A DNA stretch of 64,000 nt from Prochlorococcus marinus XMU1405 (GTDB lineage: Bacteria; Cyanobacteriota; Cyanobacteriia; PCC-6307; Cyanobiaceae): positions 124,001-188,000 of the forward strand of contig NZ_JAAORF010000003.1 of NCBI RefSeq assembly GCF_017696275.1, in the 5' to 3' direction. Within the stretch, counting starts at the first letter, position 1. Every line of letters starts with the position of its first letter. The notes under the pieces are model-generated. The model worked only from the letters and a program-made list of their open reading frames with translations. It made no database searches and was not told the DNA's origin. The translations under genes were made by a program, and so were the position numbers. Positions 10,121 to 61,021 of this stretch are shown here, one piece after another.

Positions 10121-10126
10121 TATTAT

Positions 10127-11649: not shown

Positions 11650-11651
11650 AT

Positions 11652-12329: not shown

Positions 12330-12589
12330 TTGAAAAATGATTAAGTTTTACTTAAATTTAGTTATTAAAATAACTATAGGGAAAGTAATCACTAAAGACA
12401 TAGTACTTAAAAACATAATTTAAATAGATTTTTATTAAATTTAGTTGTTAATACAATAATAGTATTCCTTTCTGAAGAGCAGAATCTATCATAATAAAAT
12501 TAAAATTTTAGTTAAATATAAAAGCTTCCTAAATAATATTAATCCTTGCTGTTAGAATTTATTTATCTTTAAATGAGATTATTCTTAAA

Positions 12590-13591: not shown

Positions 13592-13600
13592 AATAAAGAG

Positions 13601-14794: not shown

Positions 14795-15003
14795 AAAAAT
14801 TTAATACTTTAAATAATTTATAAAATAAATTTTATTATCTCAAATAAACATATCTTTCTGGAAATATTTTGTTTAAAGATTATTTGAAATAATTGATAAT
14901 TTTAATAAATAACTTCTAATAATTTTATTAGATTGACATATGATAAATTTTTATTTTTATTCCTTTTACTGTAAATTAAATTCAATATAAATAAGTTTTA
15001 AAA

Positions 15004-15690
15004 ATGAATTTGCTCATAATTCCTGCAAGAGGAGGTAGTAAAAGAATACCAAGGAAAAATATAAAAAATTTCAAAGGAAAACCAATTATAGAATGGGCTA
15101 TTACTGAATCAATGAAATTAAATCTTTTTGACAAATTTATAGTAAGCACAGATGATGAAGAAATTGCAGAAATTTCAGCTAAAGCAGGATTTGAAATACC
15201 TTTTTTGAGACCAAAGAATTTAGCTGATGATTACACTTCAACAAGGGATGTAGTTATTCATGCTATTAATTTCTTTAATGAAAAAAATGTTGAATTTGAA
15301 AAAGTTTGCTGTCTTTATCCTACGACTCCATTACTTGATGCCGAAGATATATCTAACGCTTTTCAAATTCTAAAAAAATCACAAAAAAATGTCTATGTTT
15401 TTTCTGCTTCAATATACTCCCATCCTATTCAGAGATCATTTTTTATAGAAAAAAATGGATTGTCAAAAATGTTTTTCCCTGAAAGTTTTTGCGAAAGAAC
15501 TCAAGACTTAAAGTCCGCTTTTCATGATGCAGGTCAATTTTATATAGCTTCAGCAAAAACATGGTTAAATAATAAAAATATTTTCGAGAATGGCTTGCCA
15601 TATATCCTCCCACAAAGTAAGTCAATTGATATTGATACTTTAGATGACTGGAAATTAGCAGAATTAATGCATGCAATAAACAAAAAATAA
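15004..15690 (+). CDS. pseF: CMP-pseudaminic acid cytidylyltransferase, PseF
   Basis: Activates the nonulosonic acid with CTP for transfer to the glycan. It has the NeuA-family N-terminus IIPARGGSKRIPRKNIK, then STDDEEIAE, DDYTSTRDVV, YPTTPLLDAEDI, and a C-terminal HDAGQFYIA / IDIDTLDDW. The 228-residue length fits PseF. The gap before it contains TTGACA at 14933-14938, so it may have its own promoter, but no good -10 is clear. A second cytidylyltransferase of this family is at 55287; pairing with PseB/PseC favours the pseudaminic assignment here. Confidence 0.93.
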   Translation: MNLLIIPARGGSKRIPRKNIKNFKGKPIIEWAITESMKLNLFDKFIVSTDDEEIAEISAKAGFEIPFLRPKNLADDYTSTRDVVIHAINFFNEKNVEFEKVCCLYPTTPLLDAEDISNAFQILKKSQKNVYVFSASIYSHPIQRSFFIEKNGLSKMFFPESFCERTQDLKSAFHDAGQFYIASAKTWLNNKNIFENGLPYILPQSKSIDIDTLDDWKLAELMHAINKK

Positions 15691-15833
15691 ATAAATATTT
15701 TTAGATTTTCTGAAAGTTTTTGTGAAAAAAATATTTCATTTACTAACTGATATTGTTCTTTGTTAATCTGTTATTATTTGAAGATTGTTCATTGATAATA
15801 TTACTTTAGAATGAACAAACACTTAATTAACGT

Positions 15834-17630: not shown

Positions 17631-18998
17631 ATGATTAACTCTCAAAGAAAAGAAGTATACATACCAATAGAAATAAAGCCACGAGAATTTATATCTCAGT
17701 TATTACTAAGTGCTGAATTAGCAAAAATAGGTTTGAGGGTTTATCTTGGTTCAAAAAAATCAATTGATGATTTAGTAGAGAATAAGAAAAATAAACAGGG
17801 TACCTATTTATATAAAGGTGGAGGCGGAACTATCAACAAGTTTAAAAAATTATCAAAACTCGTCAGTTCTATAGCTGTGCTTGATCAGGAGATAAGTCCT
17901 TGCCTAATTGACTCAGGGGTTACTATAAAAAATAGATTTGTAAAAGGATGTCTTAAATATGTGTCTAGGTTGTATTATGTTGGTCCAGAAACAAAAAAGA
18001 AAGCATCTGAAGTTTTAGAGGATATTGACGCCAGCCTAATAAAAGCCTATGGATGGCCTAGAGTTGATATATGGCAACCATCACTTCATCATATTTGGAA
18101 AGATCAAATAAGAGATATTAAGAAAAAATTTCCCCAACCATTTCTCTTATTTACATCTGATTTTGGTTGTAATTCAGAAAAACTTCTTGCAGAAAGATGC
18201 CTAGCGCTAGAAAAAAGGGGTCGCCGCAAGACAGCAAAAGATATAAGTTGGTTCAAGAATTTGTATAGGAATCACCACAAAAAATATCTTGAATTTATTA
18301 ATTTTTTGCCCTTGCTAGACGCTGACGAAGATATTCCAACAATCATTATTAGACCTCACCCATCAGAAGATCATTCATGTTGGGAAGAAGATGTTCGGCA
18401 TCTTTCAAAAATACATGTTGTTTATGAGGGCACTATTAGCCCTTGGATATTAAGTAGTGAAGGAGTTCTACATCGAGGATGTACTTCAGCTATTGAAGCC
18501 GCAATTTCAAGAAAGAAATTTGCAATTCTTTCAAATTTTGCAATTAAAAATAGTGGATCAATAGCTTCTGTGATTTCAACAGAAATAAAGAGTCTGGATA
18601 CATTAAAAATCTGGCTGAAACAAAGATATGAAGAAAAAATAGAAAATTCAAGTTTTTATCCTTTGCTAAAAGATCATATAAATTTTTCAAACAAAAAAGC
18701 TGCTGAAGAAATTGCTCAAGACTTATCCTCATTATCGGGAGAAAAAGTTTTCCCCTCCGATTTGAATATTAAAAAATCAACTAAATCTAAAATAAAAATA
18801 TTTTTTTATAAATTAAAGAATAAAATCTTTAGAAAAAAAGACTATGTTCCTAAATTGCCTAAAAAAAATAAAATGCAAGATGGAATTAAACTACTGGAGT
18901 GCAAATATTTTTTAGAATTAATTTATCCAGAACTTTTTTTCTCAATTCATGAGACAAATAAAGATTTAATAAAAATTGAATTTAATAATTTAGATTAA
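17631..18998 (+). CDS. Surface carbohydrate biosynthesis protein, possible glycosyltransferase
   Basis: The 455-residue protein starts on the base after the ABC exporter's stop, so the two are coupled. The N-terminus YIPIEIKPREFISQLLLSAE followed by GLRVYLGS matches what I recall of a family annotated as surface carbohydrate biosynthesis protein (TIGR04396-like). The middle has IIIRPHPSED and HRGCTSAIEAAISRKKFAIL, a pattern seen in GT-B-like capsule enzymes of the KpsS/CDP-glycerol transferase kind, where the latter segment binds the donor. A basic tail follows (about 385-420). Which sugar it handles is unknown; context makes a nonulosonate plausible. Confidence 0.7.
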   Translation: MINSQRKEVYIPIEIKPREFISQLLLSAELAKIGLRVYLGSKKSIDDLVENKKNKQGTYLYKGGGGTINKFKKLSKLVSSIAVLDQEISPCLIDSGVTIKNRFVKGCLKYVSRLYYVGPETKKKASEVLEDIDASLIKAYGWPRVDIWQPSLHHIWKDQIRDIKKKFPQPFLLFTSDFGCNSEKLLAERCLALEKRGRRKTAKDISWFKNLYRNHHKKYLEFINFLPLLDADEDIPTIIIRPHPSEDHSCWEEDVRHLSKIHVVYEGTISPWILSSEGVLHRGCTSAIEAAISRKKFAILSNFAIKNSGSIASVISTEIKSLDTLKIWLKQRYEEKIENSSFYPLLKDHINFSNKKAAEEIAQDLSSLSGEKVFPSDLNIKKSTKSKIKIFFYKLKNKIFRKKDYVPKLPKKNKMQDGIKLLECKYFLELIYPELFFSIHETNKDLIKIEFNNLD

Positions 18999-27924: not shown

Positions 27925-29880
27925 ATGTGCGGAATATCTGGCTTTATTTCTCCTGATTTTGCTCAAAATAGTTTTAAAAAAACTATTTACAACATGGTTA
28001 ATGAAATAGACCATAGAGGGCCGGACAGAAAGGGAATATGGTTTGATTACTATGCTGGAGTTGCGCTCGGACATAATAGGCTTTCAATAGTTGATTTATC
28101 TGAAGCTGGCAATCAGCCTATGATCTCCTCCTGTAAAAGATATTATATCGTTTTCAATGGGGAAATTTATAATCACAAATCACTGAGAGAGAAACTTCCT
28201 GATTCCATTAATTGGCAAGGGCATTCTGATACAGAAACATTAATAAATGGAATTTCTTGCTGGGGATTAAAAAATACTTTAAGAGAACTAGTGGGAATGT
28301 TTGCTTTTGCAATCTGGGACAGAAAGAAAAAGAAATTAACTCTTGTGAGAGACCGTTTAGGCGAAAAGCCTCTTTATTATGGATTTAGAGGAAATACAAT
28401 GATTTTTAGTTCTGAACTTAAAGCAATTGAAACATTTCCCGAAAAATCATTAAAAATCAACAAAAATTCGCTTGGATTATATATGAGATTTGGCTATATA
28501 CCTTCTCCATATTCAATATATGAAGGGATTTATAAATTGCCTCCAGGAAGTTTTGTAGAATTCACAATAGAAGATGTAAAAGAAAGATTAATTCCTTGCA
28601 GTACGCAATATTGGTCTTTGGAGTCAATAACTAAAAGACAACAATCTAATACCTTTTTAGGTACACATATCGATGCCATTGATTATCTTGAATGTCTTTT
28701 AAAAGATACAATCTCTGGACAAATGCAAGGAGATGTCCCCATAGGTGCTTTTTTATCAGGAGGTATTGATTCAAGTACAGTTGTTTCTATAATGCAAAGT
28801 CAATCTAAAAATCCTTTAAATACATTCACAGTAGGCTTTCAAGAATTTGGATATGATGAATCAAAATCAGCGAGAGCAATTTCATCTTTTATTGGAACAA
28901 ACCACAATGATTTAGTTTTATCATCTGCTGAAGCGATGAAAACAATTCCATATTTACCAGAAATATATGACGAGCCTTTCTCTGATGTTTCACAAATACC
29001 AACTTTTTTAATTAGTAAATTTGCCTCTAAAAATGTAAAAGTTTGCTTATCTGGTGATGGTGGTGATGAATTGTTTTGCGGATATTCTAGACACATCGCA
29101 GGCCCAAAAATTTGGCGTATCTTTAATAAGATTCCAAAACCGATAAGAAAAATTTGTGTTAATTTTATCCATTCATTACCTCCCACCACTTGGGATCGTT
29201 TCTATTTTTTTTGTGAATATTTTTTACCTAAGCATCTCAGAATTAATTTCCCAGGGCTAAAGATTTATAAAATATCTGATTTAATAAACAATGATTCCCT
29301 TTTCGAAGTTTATATATCTCTAATATCTTCATGGAAAGCTCCTGAAGATATTATTTTAAATTATGATCCTTCTAAAGAATTTTATGATTATGAAGTTTCT
29401 AATATCAAGTTAAATGATCCACATCATCAAATGATGTATTTTGACTCTTTAATTTATTTACCAAATGATATTCTTGTGAAAGTTGACAGGGCCGCGATGT
29501 CTTCATCACTTGAGACTCGTTTACCCTTGTTAGATCACAGGATCATAGAATTCGCTTGGAGCATTCCTCTTTCAATGAAACTAAAAGATAAAAAAAGCAA
29601 ATGGTTGTTAAGGCAAGTTCTTAAAAAATATTTACCTAATAATTTAATCGAAAAGCCAAAAACTGGGTTTTCTGTCCCAATTGGGGAATGGCTTAGAGGT
29701 CCCCTAAAGAATTGGGCAAATGAACTACTTGATGAAAAATTAATAGATTCCCATCAATATTTTTCTTCAAAATCAATACAACAAAAATGGAAAGAACACT
29801 TAACAGGAAGAAAGGACTGGTCAAAACAAATTTGGACTATTCTTATGTTTCAATCTTGGTTGATGAAACGGCAAAATTGA
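27925..29880 (+). CDS. asnB: Asparagine synthetase-type glutamine amidotransferase
   Basis: A full-length (651 residue) AsnB-family enzyme. Glutaminase domain: Cys2 nucleophile (MCGISGF), DHRGPDRKG, HNRLSIVDLS, FNGEIYNH and SDTETL. Synthetase domain: PP-loop FLSGGIDSS at about 276-284 and SGDGGDELFCGY. In polysaccharide clusters such enzymes are thought to amidate uronic acids or related carboxyl groups (WbpS-like) instead of making asparagine. Here it ends a block of glycosyltransferases, and two more family members lie at 55973 and 57736. A housekeeping role cannot be excluded. Confidence 0.9.
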   Translation: MCGISGFISPDFAQNSFKKTIYNMVNEIDHRGPDRKGIWFDYYAGVALGHNRLSIVDLSEAGNQPMISSCKRYYIVFNGEIYNHKSLREKLPDSINWQGHSDTETLINGISCWGLKNTLRELVGMFAFAIWDRKKKKLTLVRDRLGEKPLYYGFRGNTMIFSSELKAIETFPEKSLKINKNSLGLYMRFGYIPSPYSIYEGIYKLPPGSFVEFTIEDVKERLIPCSTQYWSLESITKRQQSNTFLGTHIDAIDYLECLLKDTISGQMQGDVPIGAFLSGGIDSSTVVSIMQSQSKNPLNTFTVGFQEFGYDESKSARAISSFIGTNHNDLVLSSAEAMKTIPYLPEIYDEPFSDVSQIPTFLISKFASKNVKVCLSGDGGDELFCGYSRHIAGPKIWRIFNKIPKPIRKICVNFIHSLPPTTWDRFYFFCEYFLPKHLRINFPGLKIYKISDLINNDSLFEVYISLISSWKAPEDIILNYDPSKEFYDYEVSNIKLNDPHHQMMYFDSLIYLPNDILVKVDRAAMSSSLETRLPLLDHRIIEFAWSIPLSMKLKDKKSKWLLRQVLKKYLPNNLIEKPKTGFSVPIGEWLRGPLKNWANELLDEKLIDSHQYFSSKSIQQKWKEHLTGRKDWSKQIWTILMFQSWLMKRQN

Positions 29881-41004: not shown

Positions 41005-41928
41005 CTAATAATTTTTCAAAACTTTGTCTAGTAATGTAAAAATTATTTTCTCTGTAGCTTCCATCGCATCAATTGTACATCCTCCAATATGAGGCGTAAG
41101 TATAATATTTTTACCTTGTTTTTTTAAGTCTGCCAGCGTCTTATCATAATTACTTAATTCTTGTTCTTCCCAATAAACATCAGTAGCATAACCTTTTAAA
41201 GAATTATTTTTAAGAGATTCTATTAAATATCTTTTTTCTATAATTTCTGCTCTAGCAGTATTAATTAGAAATTTATTTTTCATCAAATCAAATTCTTTTT
41301 TTGAAAAAAGTTTGGAACTTGTATGATTTAAATCAGCATTTATAGAAATAATGTCTGAATTAATAATCAATTCTTCAAGTGATTCACAAAAGGAATTATT
41401 ATCAAAAAAGTTATTCTTAATATCATAAAAAAAAACTTTTGCTTTAAAACTTTCCAAATATTCCCTTAGATGATTTCCTATTCTTCCAAGACCTACTATA
41501 CCTACTTTCATTTTACTCAATTCTCTTCCTCTAAATTTCATTCTATCTTTTGGTCCAATATTTTCCCAAGATGATTCAGCTAAAAAAACATTACGTATCA
41601 ATCCTATTATTAAAAATAAAGTTAATTCACTTGTTGATCTTATATTTGCTATTTCATCTAAAGTATCTCTCAAAGATAAAACTTGTATTTTTTTAGTTTT
41701 ACAATATTCTAAATCTATATGTCCTAGGCCAGTTGTAGGAGAAACTATATATTTTAATGATTTTGCTTTTTTCAATAGATTGATGCCTAAGTAATGAGCT
41801 AATCTACAAACAATAATTTCTGTTTTTTCATCAATTTGTTCTTGAATAAGAAAATTTAATTTTATTTTTTTTTGGACAGATTTTGAATAAGAATCATTCT
41901 CTAGAAAAAATATATTTGGATTGCTCAT
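41005..41928 (-). CDS. D-isomer-specific 2-hydroxyacid dehydrogenase
   Basis: A 307-residue NAD-dependent dehydrogenase. The cofactor domain shows KVGIVGLGRIGNHLREYL and the C-terminal catalytic part ILTPHIGGCT (His). Arg and Glu expected for the active site are in NTARAEII and the region following. Family members reduce 2-keto acids or oxidise D-2-hydroxyacids. It is the last gene of the NeuB/NeuC operon (4-base overlap with the NeuC-like gene), so a role in making an acyl precursor or a keto/hydroxy acid linked to the nonulosonate is likely. The substrate is not readable. Confidence 0.85.
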   Translation of the reverse strand: MSNPNIFFLENDSYSKSVQKKIKLNFLIQEQIDEKTEIIVCRLAHYLGINLLKKAKSLKYIVSPTTGLGHIDLEYCKTKKIQVLSLRDTLDEIANIRSTSELTLFLIIGLIRNVFLAESSWENIGPKDRMKFRGRELSKMKVGIVGLGRIGNHLREYLESFKAKVFFYDIKNNFFDNNSFCESLEELIINSDIISINADLNHTSSKLFSKKEFDLMKNKFLINTARAEIIEKRYLIESLKNNSLKGYATDVYWEEQELSNYDKTLADLKKQGKNIILTPHIGGCTIDAMEATEKIIFTLLDKVLKNY

Positions 41929-43079
41929 ATTTTGTAAGACAACTGCTTTTGAAGATTAATTTTATTTGTTAATTTATTTGCTATTGAATCTAATATAATT
42001 TTTGATGCTTTTCCATTCCCATAAATTCTTGATGATGGATATTTTCCTTTCTTCAATTGGACATCAAAAGCATCTTTAATAGATTCATAATCAAAAGAAT
42101 TAACTAAGATTACATTTTTAGAGACTTCTCTATTTTTTTGTCTTTCTCCAATTAATACTACTGGTGTTCCACTAAAGCTTGAGTCTCTTACAAATGAAGA
42201 AGAATTCCCTAGTGCGACTTGCGAATTTTTTAGTAAAGATTGAAAGTCTCTTGGCATAATATTAGTTATAAATCTAATATGTTTTATTTCTCTATTTGAA
42301 TCTAATATCTCATTTGAACCAGGATCTGCATTGGGCCTTATCCATAAGATAGTACCTTGATAATTTTCTAAAACTTTTAAAAGATTTTTAATTAAAATTT
42401 TTGAGTCTTCAATTCCAGTAGTAATTGGATGTACGCAAATTAATAAATAACCTTTTTTCAAAATATCTAGACTTATTTTTTTATTATTTTCATCAATTAT
42501 TTCTTGTAGAGAATCTAAATTTGAATTATTAGAAAGGATATAATCGCCTACAGGACAGCCAGAATTTACTATATTTTCCTTATATTCTCCCAATAGATTT
42601 ATGATTTTAGCCGCCTTATCAGTAGAGGGGAAATGAAAATGTGCCATCTTGGTAATTAAATGTCTAGTAGTTTCGTCTATTGATGAAGACTGTTCTCCTC
42701 CTTGGATATGAACTAAGAACCTATTAGCATAAGAAGCAGCGATTGCACATCCTAGTGCCTCATACCGATCTCCAATTAATAATATTGCATCTGGATTAAC
42801 TTTTTCATATAATTTTTTCATCTTATTAATAGTATTTGAAATTGTATCTAACATTGCTGAATGATTTCTACTCTTTACTTCAGTATTAACTTTATAGTCA
42901 ACCTTAATTCCATCTATAGATACTTTATCAACAATAATTCCATATTCTTCTAATAAAGTAGTCCCTGAAAAACAGGTATAAATTTCAAATCTTTCATCTT
43001 GATAGCCTTCTAATATTAGAGGGAAAAGTCTGCCATAATTTGCTCTATCTACAAGATTAATTAGCAGTTTATATTTCAT
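41925..43079 (-). CDS. neuC: UDP-N-acetylglucosamine 2-epimerase, hydrolysing (NeuC-like)
   Basis: A 384-residue GT-B-like epimerase. ILLIGDRYEALGCAIAASY, IQGGEQSSSIDETTRHLITKMAHFHF, and later ALGNSSSFVRDSSFSGTPVVLIGERQ give the NeuC/WecB fold; the IQGGE-x5-D-x3-RH pattern points to the hydrolysing type that yields ManNAc (or a related free sugar) and UDP. It would feed the NeuB-like synthase upstream, with which it overlaps by 4 bases. The LegG variant acting on a diamino sugar is possible, but no LegB/LegC genes are visible. Confidence 0.9.
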   Translation of the reverse strand: MKYKLLINLVDRANYGRLFPLILEGYQDERFEIYTCFSGTTLLEEYGIIVDKVSIDGIKVDYKVNTEVKSRNHSAMLDTISNTINKMKKLYEKVNPDAILLIGDRYEALGCAIAASYANRFLVHIQGGEQSSSIDETTRHLITKMAHFHFPSTDKAAKIINLLGEYKENIVNSGCPVGDYILSNNSNLDSLQEIIDENNKKISLDILKKGYLLICVHPITTGIEDSKILIKNLLKVLENYQGTILWIRPNADPGSNEILDSNREIKHIRFITNIMPRDFQSLLKNSQVALGNSSSFVRDSSFSGTPVVLIGERQKNREVSKNVILVNSFDYESIKDAFDVQLKKGKYPSSRIYGNGKASKIILDSIANKLTNKINLQKQLSYKI

Positions 43080-44083
43080 TTAAAATCATCCTCATTTATT
43101 AACTCATCGAACAAAATATCTCTTTTAGATAATTTTCCTATTATTTTGTCCTCATCTGCAAAAGTTAAACCCCCTCCTGGTTTTTTATATTTAATCATGT
43201 TTTTTTCAATCTTAGTTCCTTTCAAAATATCTACTGAAGCTACCATACTCCTACCAAAAAGATTTTTCATATTATTAATTTCTGGCGAAACAAAACTTTT
43301 ATCTACTTTAGAATTAGTTATTAATTGTATTTCTTCAACAAAGTTTTTTAACATCGCAAATTCGCTGATAAGTATAGAAGAACTTGCGTCTGGTCCAAAG
43401 CATGATTTATTAAAAATTACATGTGTTTCAAGCATAGAAGTTGATTCACATGCTGCCGCGGCAAGACTAGGAGATAATTTGCCAGAATGATCGGATAATC
43501 CTGACTTAACTCCATATCGATTAACAATTGTAACTATATTTTCTATCCCTATTTCGGAAAGATTTGTTGGATATTTACTTGTACATTGAAGTACATAAAT
43601 GTTATCAATATTTTTTTTTAAAATTTTTATTGATTTATCTATTTCATTCCAAGTAGACATTCCAGTTGATAGAACAATTTCGTCACATCTTTGAGACGCA
43701 TATATTAAAAGTGGTTCATTATTCAATTCTCCTGAACCAATTTTTAATGTTTTAATATCAAGCTTTTCACAGAGATCTATAGCTTTATATGAAAAAGGAC
43801 TAACAATAGGATTGATTTTTAACTGTCTACAGTAATTAATTAGTTCTGCCCACTCTTTATTAGAAAACTCTATTCTTTTCCAATAAGAATATCTATCAAT
43901 ATCTTGAGGAAATATATTTTTTCTAAACCTATCTTTCTTTGTAGACTCTTCATCAGCAAAATGCATCTGAAATTTTATTTCTTTTGCACCTGCATCTTTA
44001 AGAGCTTTTACATAAGAATAAGCCATCCCAAGGCTTCCATCATGGGCTTGGGCAATTTCAGGAATAACTCTAATTGAGTCCAT
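43076..44083 (-). CDS. neuB: N-acetylneuraminate synthase-like (NeuB family)
   Basis: A 335-residue PEP-dependent nonulosonate synthase. The N-terminus VIPEIAQAHDGSLGMAYSYV, KEIKFQMHFADEESTK, PIVSPFSYKAIDLC, STGMSTWNEIDK, QCTSKYPT, SGLSDHSGKLSPSLAA and ETHVIFNK are NeuB blocks. The last ~55 residues are the SAF domain (GRSMVASVDILKGTKI). AQAHDGSLG and KFQMHFADEEST differ from the PseI at 9080 and mark another subgroup. It lies between the NeuC-like gene (4-base overlap) and the UDP-HexNAc dehydrogenase (3 bases). The exact sugar (sialic or legionaminic type) is uncertain. Confidence 0.9.
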   Translation of the reverse strand: MDSIRVIPEIAQAHDGSLGMAYSYVKALKDAGAKEIKFQMHFADEESTKKDRFRKNIFPQDIDRYSYWKRIEFSNKEWAELINYCRQLKINPIVSPFSYKAIDLCEKLDIKTLKIGSGELNNEPLLIYASQRCDEIVLSTGMSTWNEIDKSIKILKKNIDNIYVLQCTSKYPTNLSEIGIENIVTIVNRYGVKSGLSDHSGKLSPSLAAAACESTSMLETHVIFNKSCFGPDASSSILISEFAMLKNFVEEIQLITNSKVDKSFVSPEINNMKNLFGRSMVASVDILKGTKIEKNMIKYKKPGGGLTFADEDKIIGKLSKRDILFDELINEDDFK

Positions 44084-44086
44084 TAT

Positions 44087-45451
44087 TTAAAACCTAATAG
44101 GATTGAGATTTCTTGGGACTACATTCTCAATATCAAAAATTAAGGATTGTTCATTTACTTTTAAATTTACCCAATCTTTTTCTTCCCATTCAGTATATTT
44201 CTTATGTGCGACTGTACAAATTATAATTCCATAACCATTTGGTTTTTGAGGTTTTGAATTAATACATATTCCTTTATGAGAAGTCAAATCAAATGCACTA
44301 GCTAAGTAATCAATAACTTCAACTTCAAATCCGTATTTTTCAAGTAATTTTGCTAAAATTATTGATTGGCTATTTCGTAAATCTGGACAGTCTCTCTTGA
44401 AGCAAGCTCCAACAATTAAAACTGAATTCATTGAAATACTTTTTGAATTTGCATTAAAGATTTTCGAAACTGTTCTTGCAATCCAACCCGCCATATTATC
44501 ATTAATTCTTCTTCCACTTTTAATCAATTCAGTATGTACATTATATTTTTCAGCGGCATATGCAAGATAGTAGGGGTCAACTCCAATACAATGTCCTCCC
44601 ACCAAGCCAGGATTAAATGGAATAAAATTCCATTTTGTAGAGGCTGCCTCAATTACGTCATATGTATCTAATTCCATATTTCTAAAAATCAACGATAATT
44701 CATTCATTAATGCAATATTTATATCTCTTTGAATATTCTCAACTACTTTTGCAGCCTCAGCAATTTTGATTGAAGAAGTAGAAAATGTTTTCGAATTAAG
44801 AATTAAGGAATAGAATTTATCTACCAATTTCCTAGTCTCTTCATCACTACCGCTTGTTAATTTAACTATTGATTCCAAAGAAATTTGATTATCCAAACTT
44901 GGGCTAACTCTCTCTGGACTATATCCAAGAGAAAACTTTTCACCAATTTTGCAATTTAATTTTTTTTCTAGTAATGAGCCACATATTTCCTCTGTAACTC
45001 CTGGATAAACCGTAGATTCATATATAATAACTTTTCTAATATTTTGATTGATTCCCTTTATTTCTGATCGTTTTATTGCTTTAGAAATTATTTCACTAGC
45101 ATTTTTTAATGGATTTAAATTAGGTACTTTATGTTCATCGACAGGGGTAGGAACGCACACAATAAAGATAGAACATTTTTCGAGTTCATTTTCGTAATAA
45201 GTAAAAAAAGACTTCTTGAAAAAATTATTAATCTCTTTTTCTTTTACTAAACCCGTTTTGTCTATTTTATTATTTAATTGATCAATTCTTTCTTTTTGAA
45301 TATCAAAACCAATTATTCTAGATTTGGAAATTCTTTTATCAATTAACAATGCTAAAGGTAATCCTACATAGCCTAACCCTATGACAGCAATATTTATATC
45401 TTTATCCAAATTAGGTAGATTAAAAGATTTATTTTTCAAAGAATATTCCAC
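44087..45451 (-). CDS. UDP-N-acetyl-hexosamine 6-dehydrogenase (TviB/WbpA/WecC type)
   Basis: A 454-residue nucleotide-sugar dehydrogenase of the HexNAc branch: INIAVIGLGYVGLPLALL, FIVCVPTPVDEHKVPNL, YESTVYPGVTEEICG, GYSPERVSP, IAEAAKVVENIQRDINIALMNE, and catalytic Cys in GLVGGHCIGVDPYYLAY. GACFKRDCPDLRNS is the C-terminal nucleotide-binding segment, with FKRDCPD in place of the common FKENCPD. It oxidises UDP-GlcNAc or UDP-GalNAc to the uronate. It is the first gene of the 41005-45451 operon. The uronate product is a candidate substrate for the asparagine-synthetase-type amidotransferases. Confidence 0.93.
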   Translation of the reverse strand: MEYSLKNKSFNLPNLDKDINIAVIGLGYVGLPLALLIDKRISKSRIIGFDIQKERIDQLNNKIDKTGLVKEKEINNFFKKSFFTYYENELEKCSIFIVCVPTPVDEHKVPNLNPLKNASEIISKAIKRSEIKGINQNIRKVIIYESTVYPGVTEEICGSLLEKKLNCKIGEKFSLGYSPERVSPSLDNQISLESIVKLTSGSDEETRKLVDKFYSLILNSKTFSTSSIKIAEAAKVVENIQRDINIALMNELSLIFRNMELDTYDVIEAASTKWNFIPFNPGLVGGHCIGVDPYYLAYAAEKYNVHTELIKSGRRINDNMAGWIARTVSKIFNANSKSISMNSVLIVGACFKRDCPDLRNSQSIILAKLLEKYGFEVEVIDYLASAFDLTSHKGICINSKPQKPNGYGIIICTVAHKKYTEWEEKDWVNLKVNEQSLIFDIENVVPRNLNPIRF

Positions 45452-53661: not shown

Positions 53662-54378
53662 ATGAAAGGTGATACTGGGGATAACATAGAGGCTAGGACA
53701 GGCATGTGGGCATTTAATGGTGAAATGGTAAAGTCCTTCGATAAACATGTAGAAAAATCTGTACCTCTATATAAAGAAGGTCATGAATTAATATGCCAAT
53801 TATCTGATTTTTTTGTTCCTAATGAAGGAAAAATTATTCAGATTGGTTGTAGCACTGGAGTATTAACAGGTAAATTAGCAAATCATCTTAAAAACAAAAA
53901 TAATTCTATTCTGGCAATTGATATAGAAGAGGATATGATTGCAGAAGCAAATCTTAAAAACAATCAAAAATCAATACAATTTATTTGTGAAGATATAAAT
54001 TCTTATGAAATTGAAAATGAATCAGCAAATCTAATTATTGCTTATTATTCAATACAATTTATTCATCCTAGCCAAAGGCAATTATTAATTAATAAAATTT
54101 ATAAAAGTCTAAAATGGGGCGGTGCATTCATTATGTTTGAAAAAGTGAGAGGATCAGATGCAAGATTTCAGGATATATTAAGTTCTTGTTATCTTGATTA
54201 CAAGTTAAAAAAAGGATATAGTGCTGAAAATATAATAAGTAAGCAACAGTCGTTAAAATCAGTTTTAGAACCATTTTCTAGGCAAGGCAATATAGATATT
54301 CTTAAAAGATCGGGCTTTATTGATATTGAGACAATTCAAAAGTATATTTGCTTTGAGGGCTTTCTCGCTATAAAGTAA
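53662..54378 (+). CDS. CmoA-like SAM-dependent enzyme
   Basis: A 238-residue class I SAM enzyme that aligns by eye along its length with carboxy-SAM synthase CmoA: FDKHVEKSVPLYKEGHEL, then IIQIGCSTGVLTGKL, IDIEEDMIAEA, YYSIQFIHPSQRQLLINKIY, LKWGGAFIMFEKVRG, YLDYKLKKGYS and LKRSGF. The arginine that I recall binding the carboxyl group in E. coli CmoA (Arg199) would correspond to Gln195 here. If so, it may use ordinary SAM as a methyltransferase. It sits in a glycan cluster without a visible CmoB. No housekeeping tRNA-modification context is seen. The substrate is unknown. Confidence 0.8.
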   Translation: MKGDTGDNIEARTGMWAFNGEMVKSFDKHVEKSVPLYKEGHELICQLSDFFVPNEGKIIQIGCSTGVLTGKLANHLKNKNNSILAIDIEEDMIAEANLKNNQKSIQFICEDINSYEIENESANLIIAYYSIQFIHPSQRQLLINKIYKSLKWGGAFIMFEKVRGSDARFQDILSSCYLDYKLKKGYSAENIISKQQSLKSVLEPFSRQGNIDILKRSGFIDIETIQKYICFEGFLAIK

Positions 54379-54399: not shown

Positions 54400-55290
54400 T
54401 TGAAAGGGAAATTTTTAGAAACTTATCAAAAAAGATGGCTGAATGCACTTAAAAGTGGTGACGATGATATTATTTGTTTTGGATATCCAGATACTCAAGT
54501 TAAATTTTTCTATAAAAAATATTGTGAATTTATATACAGTATTATCAAAAAAAACTTTAAATCAAAAGATATCAAAAAATTAAATCTTCTTGAACTTGGT
54601 TGTGGAAGAGGAACAGCAAGTATTTTTCTTGAAAAGAAACTTAATTTGAAAGTTATTGGTGTAGACTTCAGTTCTGAAAGTATTCAAATTGCAAAAAACA
54701 ACGCAAGTAAATACAGTTCAAATGCACGTTTTATAAAAGGCGATATTTTTGAACCTGAAAAAATTCTCAAAGATTCAAATTTAGAATCAAAAAAATTTGA
54801 TATAATTATCAGCCTTGGCGTATTAGAACATATTGAAGATATAGATAATTGTTTCAAAATTCACTTTAACTTAATGAATAAAAATGGTCTATTTGTAGCG
54901 ATGATAGTACCAGAAAAAAAATCTATTCAAGATTTCTTTTCACCTTTAAACAGAATTCTTGTGAAAATTAATCGTAGAGAAAAAAAAGAACTTAATTTAA
55001 AACATTTAGATAGAAAAACCTTATCTAAAACTGATGATGTATATAGATCATTTAAAAATAAGAATTTCTATAAAAATAAACTAGAGAAATGTGGTTATAA
55101 AGAAGTTTTAGCTATTGAATCAAATCCTTTCCCTACAATTAGACCTTTAAATAAATTTTTGGAAAAGATTCTTGTAAATACCTATAATTTAATTTTAATT
55201 TTTTTGAAAGTTTTATCAAGAAATGATTGTTTCTTTAATTGTTCTACTAACTTATCAAGATGTCATTTTTTACAAGGTTTTAAAAGATGA
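54400..55290 (+). CDS. SAM methyltransferase (class I)
   Basis: A 296-residue protein from a TTG start. LNLLELGCGRGTASIFLEKK (motif I, about 66-85), VIGVDFSSESIQIAKNNA, and FDIIISLGVLEHIEDIDNCF are standard. NKNGLFVAMIVPEKKSIQDF begins a C-terminal cap that ends in a hydrophobic stretch (YNLILIFLKVLS), so it may associate with the membrane. It overlaps the CMP-sugar synthetase gene by 4 bases (ATGA), tying methylation to the nonulosonate genes. Confidence 0.86.
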   Translation: MKGKFLETYQKRWLNALKSGDDDIICFGYPDTQVKFFYKKYCEFIYSIIKKNFKSKDIKKLNLLELGCGRGTASIFLEKKLNLKVIGVDFSSESIQIAKNNASKYSSNARFIKGDIFEPEKILKDSNLESKKFDIIISLGVLEHIEDIDNCFKIHFNLMNKNGLFVAMIVPEKKSIQDFFSPLNRILVKINRREKKELNLKHLDRKTLSKTDDVYRSFKNKNFYKNKLEKCGYKEVLAIESNPFPTIRPLNKFLEKILVNTYNLILIFLKVLSRNDCFFNCSTNLSRCHFLQGFKR

Positions 55291-55988
55291 ATAAATATAT
55301 ATATTTAATACCTGCAAGAGCTGGTTCTAAACGCATTCCAAATAAAAATATTAAGACACTCAATTCAAAACCTTTATTAGTACATAGTATTGATTTTGCT
55401 AAGAATTTTATTTCATCTGAAAATATATTTGTATTAACAGACTCTTCAAAAGCCGCCGAGATATCAAAAAAAGAATCTGCCATTGTTTATTTTAGACCTA
55501 AAGAATATTCTCGAGATGATACAAGTATGTTAGAGACCGTTTTAGATTTTTTATCTTCAAAAAATATTGATGAAGATTTACATATAGTACTACTCCAACC
55601 AACTTCTCCCTTTAGAAGTATTAATTATTTTAGAAATCTCTTAGAAATATATGAAAATAACCCAGAAGCAAGTTCAGCAGTCTCATTATTAAAATGTACA
55701 TTCTTTCATCCAACCAAAATAGGAAGATTACAAAATGATATTAATTTTGTCCCAATAATGAATCATAATAGTGATAATGTCGATAATAATAAAAGAGAAA
55801 GCTTTTTTGTAATATCTGGAACTTTCTATATCACTTCTATTAAAAATCTCAAATTAAATAATTCTTTCATTGGTCAAAATCCTATAGGTCTTGAAGAATC
55901 TAGTAATAGATTTTGCAACATTGATGAACCTATTGATTTTGAAATTGCAAAAAAATTAGCTAAGAATGAGAAATGTGTGGTTTTATAG
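55287..55988 (+). CDS. neuA: CMP-nonulosonate (acylneuraminate) cytidylyltransferase
   Basis: A 233-residue NeuA-family protein: LIPARAGSKRIPNKNIKTL, VLTDSSKAAEIS, YSRDDTSMLETVLDFL, LLQPTSPFRSINYF and SGTFYITS with NIDEPIDFEIA. It activates a nonulosonic acid with CTP. It is the logical partner of the NeuC/NeuB-like pair at 41925-44083, about 11 kb away. PseF (15004) is the partner for the pse genes. Its last 16 bases overlap the start of an asparagine-synthetase-type gene, an unusual pairing. Confidence 0.88.
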   Translation: MNKYIYLIPARAGSKRIPNKNIKTLNSKPLLVHSIDFAKNFISSENIFVLTDSSKAAEISKKESAIVYFRPKEYSRDDTSMLETVLDFLSSKNIDEDLHIVLLQPTSPFRSINYFRNLLEIYENNPEASSAVSLLKCTFFHPTKIGRLQNDINFVPIMNHNSDNVDNNKRESFFVISGTFYITSIKNLKLNNSFIGQNPIGLEESSNRFCNIDEPIDFEIAKKLAKNEKCVVL

Positions 55989-57718
55989 TTACTAGTAAAA
56001 ATTTTTCAATCAATACATTAAAAGAAATATCAGAAAATCATATTTCATATAGAGGGTCAATCAAACCTTTAATAAAAACATCAAGATACTCTCACTTTGT
56101 ATTTAGCAGATTACCAATTGTAGACGTATCGAATTATTCAAACCAACCTTATATATGGCAAGATATTTCTATTGTCTTTAATGGAGAGCTTTATAACTAT
56201 AAAGACTTAAAAGATGAATTAATAAATAAATATGGCATTAAATTTACTGGTAAATCAGATGTAGAAGTTTTCTTAAAAGGCTTCATAACATTTGGTCCCA
56301 AAATATTCTTCAAGAAAGCAATTGGTATGTGGGCATATGTCATTGAAGATAAGGAATCAAATATCTTTTGGGGTAGAGATGAATATGGAATAAAGCCACT
56401 ATATTTTGTATTAAAAAATAAAAATATTAGTCTTTCATCGTCTTTACCTGCTTTAGTTCAATTAAAGGATTTAAAAATTAATGATTTCAGTAAAGAATCT
56501 TTAAAAACATTTATAGTATATGGTTTTCTTGATCAAATCAACGTCCCTTTATATAAAGATATCTCATGCGCGAAACCAGGTTTTACATATACTTTAAAAA
56601 AAGACTCCCCATTAAAAATAGAAGAAAATAAATTTGAAGAAAGAAATATTAAATTTAATGATATAAGAACGGTTTTAGATTCAGTTATTGAAAATCAAAT
56701 ACCTGAAGAAGTTGATTTTTCCATTGCATTAAGCGGAGGTTTAGATAGCAATATATTAGCTTATACTATTGCTAAAAAAAACAAAAACTTCAGTGCTTTA
56801 TCATTGGAATTGCAAGACTCTGCTCCAGAATATAACTATATTAAGCAAACTATAAAAGACCTAAAAATAAATCATGAATTTATTAAAGTAGATTCAGATG
56901 ATGTTTTTAATGAATGTAATGATATTATCCAAAAGCTTGGGATCCCTATGAGATCTAGCCAACCTGTTTATCAATCTTTTCTTAGAAAAAGAGCAAATGA
57001 ACTAGGTTCCAAAGTTTTCTTTACAGGAGATGGAGCTGATGAAATTTTTGGTGGATATGTACAAGGATTTTATTATTTTTTAAAAGATAATTTTTCAAAA
57101 GTTAATTTAAATGAATTTCAAGATTTTCTTAATGCCAAAAATAAACTTAATTTAGAGGAAGTCTTATCTTCTATTGAAGAAAAATGCAAAGTATTTAAAC
57201 TTTCAAATAATTGGATAAACTTATTTACTTATAAAAGTAATAAATTGCCCTTAGAACCAAAAAATTTATATGAATATATGAATTTCAGACTTTATATGCA
57301 CCCCATGCCTTATTGGCTTTCAACCGAAGATGTTGTCAGTTTAAAAAATCAAATTGAGACAAGAGTTCCTTTTCTTGATCAAAGAATTGTTTTTAGGTCT
57401 AAATTTCAAGATATCAATTCTTTATACTTAAAAGGTAAAAATAAATTTCAACTTAGGCAAGCTTATAAAGATTTACCTGCCCACATAATAAATTTACAAA
57501 GAAAATATCCAAGACCCGCCGATACAAGAAATTTAGTTTATTCAGTTAAAGCTCAAAATGCAATTAAAAGTTTTATTAACTCATCCTTCTACAAAGAATT
57601 AAATATATCCAAAATTTCAAGAATATCAGATCTATATCAGAATGATATGACAAAAAATAATCCTGAAAATACAGACAATTGGTTTAGAATGCTAACATGT
57701 TTTTTCTTACTTAATTGA
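55973..57718 (+). CDS. Asparagine synthetase-type amidotransferase (tandem copy 1)
   Basis: A 581-residue AsnB-family protein. Cys2 is present (MCGFIVTS), FSRLPIVDVSNYSNQPY and FNGELYNYKDL are seen, but the usual HRGPD is YRGSI and SDTE is SDVE. The synthetase half keeps the PP-loop ALSGGLDSN from residue 252, TGDGADEIFGGY and TRVPFLDQRIV. It may amidate a carboxylated sugar, perhaps the product of the overlapping neuA, or a uronate. It is diverged from both the copy that follows (17 bases later) and the one at 27925. Confidence 0.87.
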   Translation: MCGFIVTSKNFSINTLKEISENHISYRGSIKPLIKTSRYSHFVFSRLPIVDVSNYSNQPYIWQDISIVFNGELYNYKDLKDELINKYGIKFTGKSDVEVFLKGFITFGPKIFFKKAIGMWAYVIEDKESNIFWGRDEYGIKPLYFVLKNKNISLSSSLPALVQLKDLKINDFSKESLKTFIVYGFLDQINVPLYKDISCAKPGFTYTLKKDSPLKIEENKFEERNIKFNDIRTVLDSVIENQIPEEVDFSIALSGGLDSNILAYTIAKKNKNFSALSLELQDSAPEYNYIKQTIKDLKINHEFIKVDSDDVFNECNDIIQKLGIPMRSSQPVYQSFLRKRANELGSKVFFTGDGADEIFGGYVQGFYYFLKDNFSKVNLNEFQDFLNAKNKLNLEEVLSSIEEKCKVFKLSNNWINLFTYKSNKLPLEPKNLYEYMNFRLYMHPMPYWLSTEDVVSLKNQIETRVPFLDQRIVFRSKFQDINSLYLKGKNKFQLRQAYKDLPAHIINLQRKYPRPADTRNLVYSVKAQNAIKSFINSSFYKELNISKISRISDLYQNDMTKNNPENTDNWFRMLTCFFLLN

Positions 57719-57735
57719 TTTAACATCGCGAAACT

Positions 57736-59502
57736 ATGTGTGGGTTTTTAGGAATTGGTGGAAAAAAATATAAGGAGCAAAAACATAATTTAATTTTCTC
57801 TTCTTTTGAATGGCTTAAGCATAGAGGGCCAGATCAGAGTAAATTCTTTAATTTAGAAAAATTTTTTATAGGATTCCACAGACTTTCTATTGTGGGGGTT
57901 GATAATAAAAAAGCAAATCAACCGTATTATTCCAAAGATAAAAATTTTTACCTCATGTTCAATGGGGAAATTTTTAACTTCAAGGAACTAGCAAATCAAT
58001 GGCTTAATAAATTTAATTTCGAAAAAGAAATTCTTGAGTCGGATACTCTTGTGTTAGCGAAATTAATAGAAATTTATGGTTTGCGATGTCTAGAATGGCT
58101 TGATGGAATGTTTTCAATCGCCATTGTATTCGAGGAATTAGGGAAAGTTCAACTAATAAGAGATAGATATGGAATTAAACCACTTTATTATTGCATTCAA
58201 AATAATAATATTATTTTTGGAAGTCATATTAAACCAATAATAGATATCCATGAATCTATTGCCCCCAATTCAGATGCTATTTTAACCTATTTATATACAG
58301 GTCTTTATGATCATTCAAACAATACTTTTTTTAAAGATATATATTCAGTCAATCCTGGTTCCATAATTGAATTTGATTTAGAAACAAAACGAATTAGGAA
58401 TGAAAATTGGTATGATATCAAGGAATTTACAAATATAAGAAATAGGGAAAGCTATAATTCCTTGTTGGAGGAAATTGATGAGACAATATCTAGAGTTATA
58501 TTAGATTATCTTCCTGATGAGGTAGAATGTTGTATAAATGCTTCTGGAGGAGTAGATTCATCATTATTAATAAACGAGATTTTTAGTTTCAAAAAAAATA
58601 TTTTAGTTCAGAACCAAGATTATAAAATTCCATATAGCGAAAAAAAATGGATAGAAGAATATTCTAAAAAATTAAATATAAAACCTATTTACCATTTGAT
58701 AGAACCAGATTTTATTTTAGAAGACTTAAAAAGCACTTTTATATATCAAGGTCAACCATTTGGAGGGGTAACTGTTCCTGGATATACTCCACTTTATATA
58801 AATGCTAATAAACAAAATTGTAAGGTAATTTTTGATGGAACTGGACTGGATGAAGCTTTTCTAGGTTATCCACGATATGCAAGTAAGAACTTTACTAATA
58901 ATTTTTGGAAAAATTCAATTATTGGATCTTCTGGTCCAACCGATCATAGAGGAATTCGTCCAAATGCAATTAATACAAATCTATTAAAAAAAGGAAATTT
59001 AATTAATAGCAGCATTGATGAATTAGATGGGGTAGACCACGCAAGGTTAATGAGTATGAATGATATAGCACATTATAAGATTCCTAGAACTACAAGATTC
59101 ACAGATCATTCTTCAAGTAGATTTTCATTAGAACTTCGATCTCCCTTTCTTTCCCATAAAATTATCCACCTTGGTATGTCCATTGAATCGAACTTATTAA
59201 TATCAGATAAAGGAACGAAATTACCAATTAGAGATTTATTAGCAAAAAAAGGGTTACCAATGGTTGCTTATGCTCCAAAGAGATATGTTCAAAGTCCACA
59301 AAATGAGTGGTTAGCGAAAGAATTCAGAGATATGCTAAAGAATTATATTTTTTCAGATTCGTTTTATAGTAGAGGATGGATCAAACCTGAAGTCATAAAA
59401 GAGGAATATAATTTATATTTAAACTCAAGCAAAGAAAATTCATTTTATATATGGCAGTGGATGTCTCTAGAAATTTGGGCTAGAACTTTTTTAGATAATT
59501 AA
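57736..59502 (+). CDS. Asparagine synthetase-type amidotransferase (tandem copy 2)
   Basis: A 588-residue AsnB-family protein with Cys2 (MCGFLGIGG), KHRGPDQSKF, FHRLSIVG, MFNGEIFNF and ESDTLVLAK in the glutaminase domain and NASGGVDSS from residue 268, FDGTGLDEAFLGY, ELRSPFLSHK in the synthetase domain. It keeps the canonical glutamine-site motif that copy 1 has altered. Two adjacent, non-identical copies suggest different acceptors or a heteromer. It is convergent with the KpsS-like gene (4 bases between stops). Confidence 0.88.
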   Translation: MCGFLGIGGKKYKEQKHNLIFSSFEWLKHRGPDQSKFFNLEKFFIGFHRLSIVGVDNKKANQPYYSKDKNFYLMFNGEIFNFKELANQWLNKFNFEKEILESDTLVLAKLIEIYGLRCLEWLDGMFSIAIVFEELGKVQLIRDRYGIKPLYYCIQNNNIIFGSHIKPIIDIHESIAPNSDAILTYLYTGLYDHSNNTFFKDIYSVNPGSIIEFDLETKRIRNENWYDIKEFTNIRNRESYNSLLEEIDETISRVILDYLPDEVECCINASGGVDSSLLINEIFSFKKNILVQNQDYKIPYSEKKWIEEYSKKLNIKPIYHLIEPDFILEDLKSTFIYQGQPFGGVTVPGYTPLYINANKQNCKVIFDGTGLDEAFLGYPRYASKNFTNNFWKNSIIGSSGPTDHRGIRPNAINTNLLKKGNLINSSIDELDGVDHARLMSMNDIAHYKIPRTTRFTDHSSSRFSLELRSPFLSHKIIHLGMSIESNLLISDKGTKLPIRDLLAKKGLPMVAYAPKRYVQSPQNEWLAKEFRDMLKNYIFSDSFYSRGWIKPEVIKEEYNLYLNSSKENSFYIWQWMSLEIWARTFLDN

Positions 59503-59506
59503 AAAA

Positions 59507-61021
59507 TTATTTAATTAAAAAATTTGTTAATTTAATTATTTCATTTTTATATTTTTTATTAAATGGATCTTTTATTAAAAAAAATAAATTAATTTTCTTT
59601 CCTAAACTTATAGTTGCGGCTAAATAGTGGATAATAATTTTTTCATCAACAACAAAATTTTCACTGATAAAATTATCGTTTTTAAGAGCCTCAGAGATTT
59701 CTTCCATATTAAATAAATTAAAACCAGATACTTTAAAGAATTCTCCATAAATTGGATTGCCCAATATTAAAGTAGATTTTCCTAACATCGCAGACTCAAG
59801 ACCAGCAGTGCCAGCTATTGTTATATTAAGAAGCGAATTTTTTAGTAAATTTAGTGGGTTAACAATATTCCATTTATGAGTCCATTCTGATAAATAAATT
59901 ATGTTATTTATCATGGATGTTTCTCTGATGAAGTCTGTAGTCCTATCTTGAATCATTGATCTATGATCTTTACAAATCATTGGGATTAATCCAATACTTG
60001 GTCTAAATAAATCTATTACTAATCTTTCAGATAAGATATTCCCATTAAATCTCGTTTCTGAATTCTCAACGGTATTTGGCATTGGGAAATAAATATAATT
60101 AATAGGTAATGCATCTAGGGCTTTAAATGGCTCCCATATCCTAAATAAGTTTCTTATTAAAACTAAAATATTATTTATGTGAGAAGGAACTGTATTTCCA
60201 ATAATGTATTTCTTATATTTTTTAGTTAAAGGATATTTATAAAATTTTAAGTTTCCAATAAAAACTCTATATATCATCAAATATAAATAAATTAAAATTG
60301 ATTTTAATAATGAAAAAGAAGCTTTTAAAGAAAATTTTGGAATTAAAACTGTTTTTTCTACCTCAGATGTAATATCTTTACTCGATCTAAATTTCTTTAA
60401 TTCATTCTTTGCCTGCGAAAAATATTCATTTTCAATTTTTAGACTATACATTTTATTTGCTAAATTTTTACCTAACTCATTTGTTCTCAAATAATAATTA
60501 TCAAAGCGACTTCTTATAACAGAACGGTATTCAATTCCATAAAAATTAGATACGCTTAAAAGAATAGTTCTACTGACATCATAAACATCGAAATCAATAA
60601 TTAAGGATTCTTTATTATTTTCTAAAATATTGTGAAAGTATATTGCTTGAGAACATAAAACAAATTTTTGTAACTCTGGTGAATTATTTTTATTTTGAAT
60701 TCTTCTATTTAAGTCAAATAATTGATTTGGTTCAGCACAAAGTTCATTAAGAATCAATTTAAAGGTATTTGGATCAAATTTTTTTAATTCATTAATAGAA
60801 TTATTTTTCTCAATAATATTTCTAACAGATCTCCAGCAAGATATATATCTTCTGCCTTTAAAGTATTTCTTTATTAAACTATTAGATATAATTTCTTCAA
60901 CAGGAGTTATTAATAAGATTTCTGGTTTGAATTTATTTTCTTCTTTTAAAATAACATCATATACTGCAGCTGCTATTGGGATAGTTACTTCCTTAGCTAC
61001 TATAAATAATTTTCTTTTCAT
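59507..61021 (-). CDS. Capsule polysaccharide biosynthesis protein, KpsS/Capsule_synth-like
   Basis: A 504-residue protein. The C-terminal ~170 residues match the pattern of capsule beta-Kdo transferases: INYIYFPMPNTVENSET, PMICKDHRSMIQDR, then NNIIYLSEWTHKWNIV and TIAGTAGLESAMLGKSTLILGNPIYGEFF. A hydrophobic segment near 240-260 may be a membrane contact. The N-terminal half has no family I recognise (SVIRSRFDNYYLRTNEL). A possible role is sugar addition to a lipid acceptor or a terminal cap. The assignment rests on the C-terminal motifs only. Confidence 0.65.
   Translation of the reverse strand: MKRKLFIVAKEVTIPIAAAVYDVILKEENKFKPEILLITPVEEIISNSLIKKYFKGRRYISCWRSVRNIIEKNNSINELKKFDPNTFKLILNELCAEPNQLFDLNRRIQNKNNSPELQKFVLCSQAIYFHNILENNKESLIIDFDVYDVSRTILLSVSNFYGIEYRSVIRSRFDNYYLRTNELGKNLANKMYSLKIENEYFSQAKNELKKFRSSKDITSEVEKTVLIPKFSLKASFSLLKSILIYLYLMIYRVFIGNLKFYKYPLTKKYKKYIIGNTVPSHINNILVLIRNLFRIWEPFKALDALPINYIYFPMPNTVENSETRFNGNILSERLVIDLFRPSIGLIPMICKDHRSMIQDRTTDFIRETSMINNIIYLSEWTHKWNIVNPLNLLKNSLLNITIAGTAGLESAMLGKSTLILGNPIYGEFFKVSGFNLFNMEEISEALKNDNFISENFVVDEKIIIHYLAATISLGKKINLFFLIKDPFNKKYKNEIIKLTNFLIK

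Follow-up and report, generated by a model that had tools for sequence, protein, structure and literature searches.

Nonulosonates give bacterial surfaces negative charge, and phages and grazers target them. AsnB enzymes are already known from nonulosonate and uronate glycan clusters. WbpS, WbqG, and PGN_1234 are documented uronamide-forming AsnB homologues of the TIGR03108-type group (PMC7468200). The asnB gene Tanf_01265 lies in the pseudaminate O-glycosylation cluster of Tannerella forsythia, and an acetamidino role was proposed for it (PMC6120980). Here we describe two AsnB-type genes, asnB1 and asnB2, which follow a gene of the cytidine monophosphate (CMP)-nonulosonate synthetase type (neuA, product NeuA2) in a 64,000-nucleotide stretch of Prochlorococcus marinus XMU1405 (G000:C3:124001-188000). 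This stretch, hereafter the window, is a surface-polysaccharide island in a 1.67 Mb genome.

Sequence comparison suggests that AsnB1 and AsnB2 have non-redundant roles as tailoring amidotransferases of a surface polysaccharide that contains a nonulosonate. We give this reading a probability of roughly 0.55. The acceptor may be the nonulosonate carboxyl, a linked uronic acid of that glycan, or an N-acyl group, which would become an amidine. Two features are new: specific AsnB clades are coupled to a CmoA-like methyltransferase and to neuA, both across the genus and across phyla, and two AsnB clades stand behind one neuA. Nothing on nonulosonate amidation in Prochlorococcus was found among the literature matches listed.

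The gene run and its two AsnB-type enzymes

The run is tight and co-directional, in the following order:

53662-54378, + strand: CmoA-like methyltransferase (TIGR00740, 145.6 bits, cut-off 193.3), conserved partner of the AsnB1 clade
54400-55290, + strand: class I S-adenosylmethionine (SAM) methyltransferase (PF13847, 79 bits), TTG start uncertain
55287-55988, + strand: NeuA2, CMP-nonulosonate synthetase-type cytidylyltransferase of 233 aa (PF02348, CTP_transf_3, 87.8 bits, 1.2e-24)
55973-57718, + strand: AsnB1, AsnB-type glutamine-dependent amidotransferase (YRGS variant) of 581 aa (PF00733, Asn_synthase, 124 bits, and PF13537, GATase_7)
57736-59502, + strand: AsnB2, second AsnB-type amidotransferase, of a separate clade, 588 aa (PF00733, 105 bits, and PF13537)

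The 16-base overlap of neuA with asnB1 and the 17-base gap between the asnB genes, both given in the original prediction, were exact. The run is longer than was stated there: two methyltransferase genes lie upstream of neuA, and the nearer one (54400-55290) shares 4 bases with it. Class-II amidotransferases require a Cys directly after the start Met. Both asnB genes open with ATG-TGT, which puts the catalytic Cys where the enzyme class needs it, so the AsnB starts and the overlap with neuA are sound. A promoter and terminator scan gave matches at chance level.

Pfam searches showed that AsnB1 and AsnB2 are each full-length and two-domain, with an N-terminal nucleophile (Ntn) glutaminase and a PP-loop ATP pyrophosphatase. 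The AlphaFold model of AsnB1 (predicted local distance difference test score 76.5, predicted template modelling score 0.82, low confidence at residues 362-444) aligned end to end with Escherichia coli AsnB (1ct9; Z 33.2, 444 residues, 3.0 Å). A two-subunit system had been suggested for the pair. This was ruled out, together with half-enzymes, because neither copy lacks a domain and the AsnB1 model spans the full length of AsnB.

The copies had also been said to differ in the glutamine site. The sequences do carry YRGSI in AsnB1 and HRGPD in AsnB2, but the difference was overstated. The contact residues C1, R49, N74, G75, E76, and D98 (E. coli AsnB numbering) are identical in both copies. The His29 position, which is Tyr in AsnB1, holds H, Y, E, S, N, K, R, D, A, or Q across approximately 70 relatives. 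YRGS was therefore rejected as the mark of a broken glutamine site. The PP-loop motif SGGxDS of E. coli AsnB is also kept in both copies. At the adenylate site, E348 is replaced by Asp in AsnB1, which could be a conservative change, and by Thr in AsnB2. K449 is not firmly scorable, since two alignments disagree on whether AsnB1 has Lys or Arg there.

Neither copy has lost Cys1 or any part of the glutamine site, so ammonia is the indicated donor. The beta-lactam synthetases, the carbapenam synthetases, and a hydroxyamidotransferase share the fold, which would allow an amide with another amine or an intramolecular lactam. Lactam synthetases have lost the glutaminase nucleophile, and with the nucleophile in place here we consider such a product very unlikely.

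Asparagine synthetases of the ordinary kind, placed by chance in a surface-polysaccharide island, would have the full AsnB architecture seen here and, as both copies do, TIGR01536 as best general model. Against the TIGR01536 asparagine-synthetase equivalog cut-off of 267.1, AsnB1 reached 229.7 and AsnB2 241.6, and against the NF006949 cut-off of 499 they reached 150.6 and 159.7. The E. coli AsnB control scored 510 and 1050, respectively. These shortfalls, the lack of E348, and the recurrence of clade-specific partners make asparagine synthesis extremely unlikely. A 670-aa AsnB-type protein encoded elsewhere in the genome is a putative housekeeping copy. The sequence and model data fit AsnB1 and AsnB2 being complete ligases that transfer ammonia to an acceptor other than aspartate.

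AsnB clades and their genomic partners

In a maximum-likelihood tree of 57 AsnB-type proteins, AsnB1 fell in a seven-member clade (support 99/97). AsnB2 was placed in a different part of the tree as sister to the protein L039:13711-15444 of genome G042 (support 100/97). A local tandem duplication was ruled out by these two different supported groups. The separate clades and the Asp/Thr difference at E348 suggest that AsnB1 and AsnB2 probably act on two different acid groups.

Conservation of neuA-asnB-asnB was found, but it is rare. The trio recurs in one other genome, G042 (L039), where a neuA-type gene (13019-13732) overlaps the AsnB2 sister (13711-15444) and an AsnB1-clade member follows (15516-17366), so that the same two clades appear in swapped order. 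G050, G034, and a SAR116 bacterium show that the trio is not obligatory. G042 has a second tandem AsnB pair (L039:4230-7776) approximately 6 kb upstream of the trio, giving four AsnB-type genes in one island.

Gene co-occurrence was compared at the genome level among 200 genomes of the genus, with hypergeometric p values. An AsnB1-clade gene was present in seven (G000, G025, G034, G042, G050, G070, and G182). A profile search of the 64 genomes with any AsnB-type hit gave these seven at ≥704 bits and all others at ≤321 bits; the seven are rows of that profile, and the value of the search lies in the absence of further members. Outside the window, all hits of the AsnB1 profile among 292 genomes of the phylum were generic AsnB, of which the best scored 312 bits (vs. 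704). When named genomes were scanned with the AsnB1 pair, 79 pattern matches resulted, with no relative among them.

The CmoA-like gene was found in 7/7 AsnB1-clade genomes and in 6/193 others (13/200 overall, p = 7.5e-10). The association held without the window (p = 1.2e-8) and among the 66 genomes that are at least 90% complete (p = 7.7e-8). The neuA gene was found in all seven as well, against 48/193 others (55/200 overall, p = 9e-5). When genomes with an AsnB1- or AsnB2-group gene were counted together, neuA was present in 9/9 vs. 46/191 others. The AsnB1 clade and the CmoA-like or neuA genes occur together far more often than chance predicts, and the association of AsnB-type enzymes with nonulosonate genes is recurrent rather than random.

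The window contains a third, contrasting copy:

27925-29880, + strand: AsnB3, WbpS-like clade (TIGR03108, 523.6 bits, below the cut-off of 816.9)

The AsnB3 clade showed no clear link with neuA (6/12, p = 0.08). Nonulosonate genes (neuA/B/C) lay within 6 kb at 8/11 loci of the AsnB1 and AsnB2 groups vs. 7/44 other AsnB loci (p = 0.0006), and TviB/TviC genes lay within 6 kb at 6/13 AsnB3-clade loci vs. 6/42 others (p = 0.024) and at 1/11 loci of the AsnB1 and AsnB2 groups; the grouping was set after some loci had been seen, and two loci give two rows each.

These neighbourhoods bear on the possibility that AsnB1, AsnB2, or both amidate a uridine diphosphate (UDP)-N-acetylhexosamine (HexNAc) uronic acid to a uronamide, with the nonulosonate genes merely island neighbours. 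The uronate would be made by the TviB-type dehydrogenase at 44087 and the TviC-like epimerase at 32255. Among AsnB-type enzymes of glycan clusters, uronamide formation is the best documented activity (PMC7468200). The TviB gene is separated from neuB2 by 3 bases in the window, and in G050 it lies inside the AsnB1 block. However, the WbpS-like copy with a clade near TviB/TviC is AsnB3, and AsnB1 and AsnB2 reached only 136.8 and 188.8 bits against the TIGR03108 (WbpS-type) model. We regard uronamide formation by AsnB1 or AsnB2 as possible, though doubtful. The predicted link of amidation to the nonulosonate thus stands in part: the AsnB/nonulosonate association recurs and both copies are below the asparagine-synthetase cut-off, while its uronamide option fits AsnB3 better than AsnB1 or AsnB2.

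G050 alone has a close AsnB1 ortholog. Its block (L037) contains, in order, a dehydrogenase, NeuB, NeuC, a 2-hydroxyacid dehydrogenase, the CmoA-like gene, the methyltransferase, AsnB1, a putative transferase, and a relative of one further gene of the window:

59507-61021, - strand: conserved protein, possibly a glycosyltransferase, with its G050 ortholog four genes from the CmoA-like gene

Identities between G050 and the window were 61% for the CmoA-like protein, 55% for the methyltransferase, 46% for AsnB1, and 45% for the 59507-61021 protein. NeuB, NeuC, and the 2-hydroxyacid dehydrogenase were 31-33% identical, so their specificity may differ between the two loci. The single strong NeuA2 ortholog in the 200 genomes is also in G050 (49%; next 36%), approximately 22 kb upstream of the AsnB1 block (L102). 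Since G050 keeps the block without AsnB2 and with neuA at this distance, the more conserved partner of AsnB1 is the upstream CmoA-like methyltransferase rather than neuA or AsnB2. AsnB1 thus goes with the CmoA-like protein and the methyltransferase, co-occurrence adds NeuA2 to this set, and AsnB2 is an extra.

The 59507-61021 protein and L037:12852-14369 form a conserved 504/505-aa protein; the window copy has no Pfam family, and its counterpart in G050 matches PF05159 (capsule synthesis) weakly. It is possibly the transferase for the modified sugar.

Arg199 of CmoA binds the carboxyl of carboxy-SAM (PMC3663124). This position is Gln in the window protein and Thr, Ser, Ala, Gln, Met, or Asn, never Arg, in approximately 80 CmoA-like relatives. 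With Arg199 absent, the CmoA-like protein is better read as an ordinary methyltransferase. The gene row does resemble the phage CmoA-CmoX-CmoY system (PMC12783734), in line with a route in which the CmoA-like protein makes carboxy-SAM, the methyltransferase carboxymethylates a sugar, and AsnB amidates it to a carbamoylmethyl sugar. The missing Arg199 and the score below the TIGR00740 cut-off rule this route out. The two CmoA-like members that were scored (window and L184) both fell below the CmoA cut-off, and annotation as carboxy-SAM synthase is not warranted.

A CmoA-like scan of named genomes gave 80 loci in several phyla (L107-L186), and the family without Arg199 is widespread in their polysaccharide loci. 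AsnB lay within 10 kb in 15/80 loci, a rate without a measured background outside the genus. Nonulosonate genes were present in ten loci, with L186 counted by a weak partial neuA hit only. A SAR116 bacterium (L184) has the order NeuB-methyltransferase-AsnB-CmoA-NeuA, and Chelatococcus and Methylopila (L123 and L119; Hyphomicrobiales) have CmoA, AsnB, TviB, NeuB, NeuC, and NeuA. A Rickettsiales locus (L186) has CmoA-methyltransferase-AsnB in the order of the window, and its AsnB joined the AsnB1 clade (100/99). The CmoA-like gene is likewise linked to a second AsnB group (n = 8, support 100/100), with members in L094, L184, and further Alphaproteobacteria.

In the Rickettsiales metagenome-assembled genome, the AsnB1-like gene is split into two open reading frames (L186:10458-12195), one gene from a neuA-type fragment; the split may be a frameshift or an assembly error. 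The window gene at 17631-18998 encodes a TIGR04396 surface carbohydrate biosynthesis protein, and its homologues lie near CmoA-like and AsnB genes in Alphaproteobacteria (L108, L112, L115, L119, L121, and L123).

The nonulosonate genes and the predicted product

The nonulosonate that NeuA2 would activate is assigned to a second operon of the window (41005-45451), whose junctions are of 3-4 bases:

41005-41928, - strand: D-2-hydroxyacid dehydrogenase of the NeuB2 operon (PF02826, 126 bits)
41925-43079, - strand: NeuC-type hydrolysing UDP-sugar 2-epimerase (TIGR03568, 281.5 bits, above the cut-off of 235.9)
43076-44083, - strand: NeuB2, divergent nonulosonate synthase (TIGR03569, 241.5 bits, below the cut-off of 399.7)
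44087-45451, - strand: TviB-type nucleotide-sugar 6-dehydrogenase (TIGR03026, 316 bits, above the cut-off of 189.8)

The window, G050, and a Puniceicoccaceae locus (L110; NeuB-NeuC-2-hydroxyacid dehydrogenase-CmoA-methyltransferase-NeuA) have the order NeuB-NeuC-2-hydroxyacid dehydrogenase in common. NeuA2 is paired with NeuB2 by elimination, since the other pair of the window, PseI (9080-10120) and PseF (15004-15690), passes its own equivalog cut-offs. That pair belongs to a separate pseudaminate-type cluster (9080-15690) with PseB/PseC-like proteins. The cluster also encodes a PIG-L deacetylase, a GNAT protein, and a formyltransferase-like protein, a hint that its product is an N-modified and perhaps formylated variant.

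NeuA2 carries IPARAGSKRIPNKN, which fits the PAR.GSK nucleotide motif of the CTP_transf_3 domain. It reached 95.5 bits against the PseF model, below the cut-off of 205.7, and its best solved relatives are CMP-N-acetylneuraminate (NeuNAc) synthetases. The carboxylate-binding Arg165 of the Neisseria meningitidis CMP-NeuNAc synthetase (CSS) is Asn in NeuA2 and in its G050 ortholog. The R165A mutant of N. meningitidis CSS is inactive (PMC2901514). From these residues and scores, NeuA2 is likely a CMP-nonulosonate synthetase in functional class with an atypical substrate, and the absence of Arg165 suits an unusual or neutralised acid. Arg165 is also missing, independently, in the Verrucomicrobial NeuA of L110 and L117, loci without AsnB. 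For this reason, the loss was not used to name the product, nor as evidence for a C1 amide. The NeuA-type proteins without Arg165 (55287-55988, L102:6520-7251, L110:11661-12380, and L117:10733-11485) apparently lost it twice.

The gene order also allows a nonulosaric acid: starting from a uronic-acid precursor, the TviB dehydrogenase, NeuC, and NeuB2 would act in series and produce a nine-carbon sugar that bears a second, terminal carboxyl. NeuA2 would activate this sugar, and AsnB1 and AsnB2 would amidate one or both carboxyls. A dehydrogenase gene is found inside the NeuB operon in both the window and G050, where it adjoins NeuB, and in L128 and L114 NeuB has a nucleotide-sugar dehydrogenase gene nearby. 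The missing carboxylate-binding Arg of NeuA2 is a further hint and no proof, given the same loss in the AsnB-less Verrucomicrobial loci. We consider this product quite unlikely.

By analogy with modified legionaminic acids, the AsnB-type enzymes might instead turn the nonulosonate N-acyl group into an acetamidino group, with N-methylation by the methyltransferases. Two methyltransferases beside neuA would fit this, and the same role was proposed, as a proposal only, for the AsnB homologue of the T. forsythia pseudaminate O-glycan cluster (PMC6120980). We hold an acetamidino product to be unlikely. The acetamidino-forming enzymes characterised so far are known from another family, of free-standing PP-loop proteins.

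For the preferred reading, tailoring amidation of a nonulosonate-containing polysaccharide, family knowledge suggests the chemistry. Glutamine would be hydrolysed in the glutaminase domain, and ammonia would pass to the second domain. The acceptor carboxyl would be activated as an acyl-adenylate and then amidated. The acceptor may be an acidic group on the nonulosonate made by NeuC, NeuB2, and NeuA2, or on an attached sugar or acyl group, and the CmoA-like protein and the second methyltransferase may methylate the same residue.

Several points weigh against this reading. Related genomes are not statistically independent. The clade labels come from long-branched trees, and the AsnB2 group beyond the sister pair is weakly supported. 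AsnB2 is absent from G050, so the two enzymes need not occur together. The locus probably also makes UDP-HexNAc uronates, which could serve as acceptors instead. The Puniceicoccaceae genome (L110/G803) yielded no convincing AsnB, so amidation is not integral to the pathway encoded at that locus.

Comparison with known systems

If the preferred reading is true, amidation that masks the nonulosonate charge would alter what recognises the cell. The combination of a CmoA-like gene, AsnB, and neuB/neuA, found from Prochlorococcus to SAR116 and Hyphomicrobiales, may be a genetic signature for an undescribed modified sugar. This signature separates nonulosonate-linked AsnB enzymes from WbpS-like ones, which databases group together as asparagine synthetase.

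E. coli AsnB (1ct9) shares with AsnB1 the fold, the domain order, the glutamine site, and the PP-loop. It differs in that the window copies lie below the asparagine-synthetase cut-offs, have E348 replaced, and have a diverged C-terminal domain. The N. meningitidis CMP-NeuNAc synthetase is of the same fold family as NeuA2, which keeps Q104, K142, Y179, and D211, but NeuA2 has Asn at Arg165 and Asn at the metal ligand Asp209.

The CmoA-CmoX-CmoY system of Synechococcus phage S-B43 likewise encodes a CmoA homologue, a methyltransferase, and an amide former together (PMC12783734). The phage amide former is an ATP-dependent ligase, whereas that of the window is AsnB-type and the window CmoA-like protein is without the carboxy-SAM arginine.

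WbpS (Pseudomonas aeruginosa O6), WbqG (E. coli O121), and PGN_1234 (Porphyromonas gingivalis) are likewise two-domain AsnB-type proteins of surface-glycan clusters with uronic-acid dehydrogenase genes near. They are in the TIGR03108-type group, whereas AsnB1 and AsnB2 are below its cut-off, in other clades, and nonulosonate-associated. The Tanf_01265 cluster, compared by description, also has an AsnB-type gene with CMP-nonulosonate, HexNAc uronate, and methyltransferase genes. It has one AsnB, with acetamidino-pseudaminate and N-acetylmannosamine (ManNAc)-uronamide as candidate products, whereas the window has two AsnB clades after neuA.

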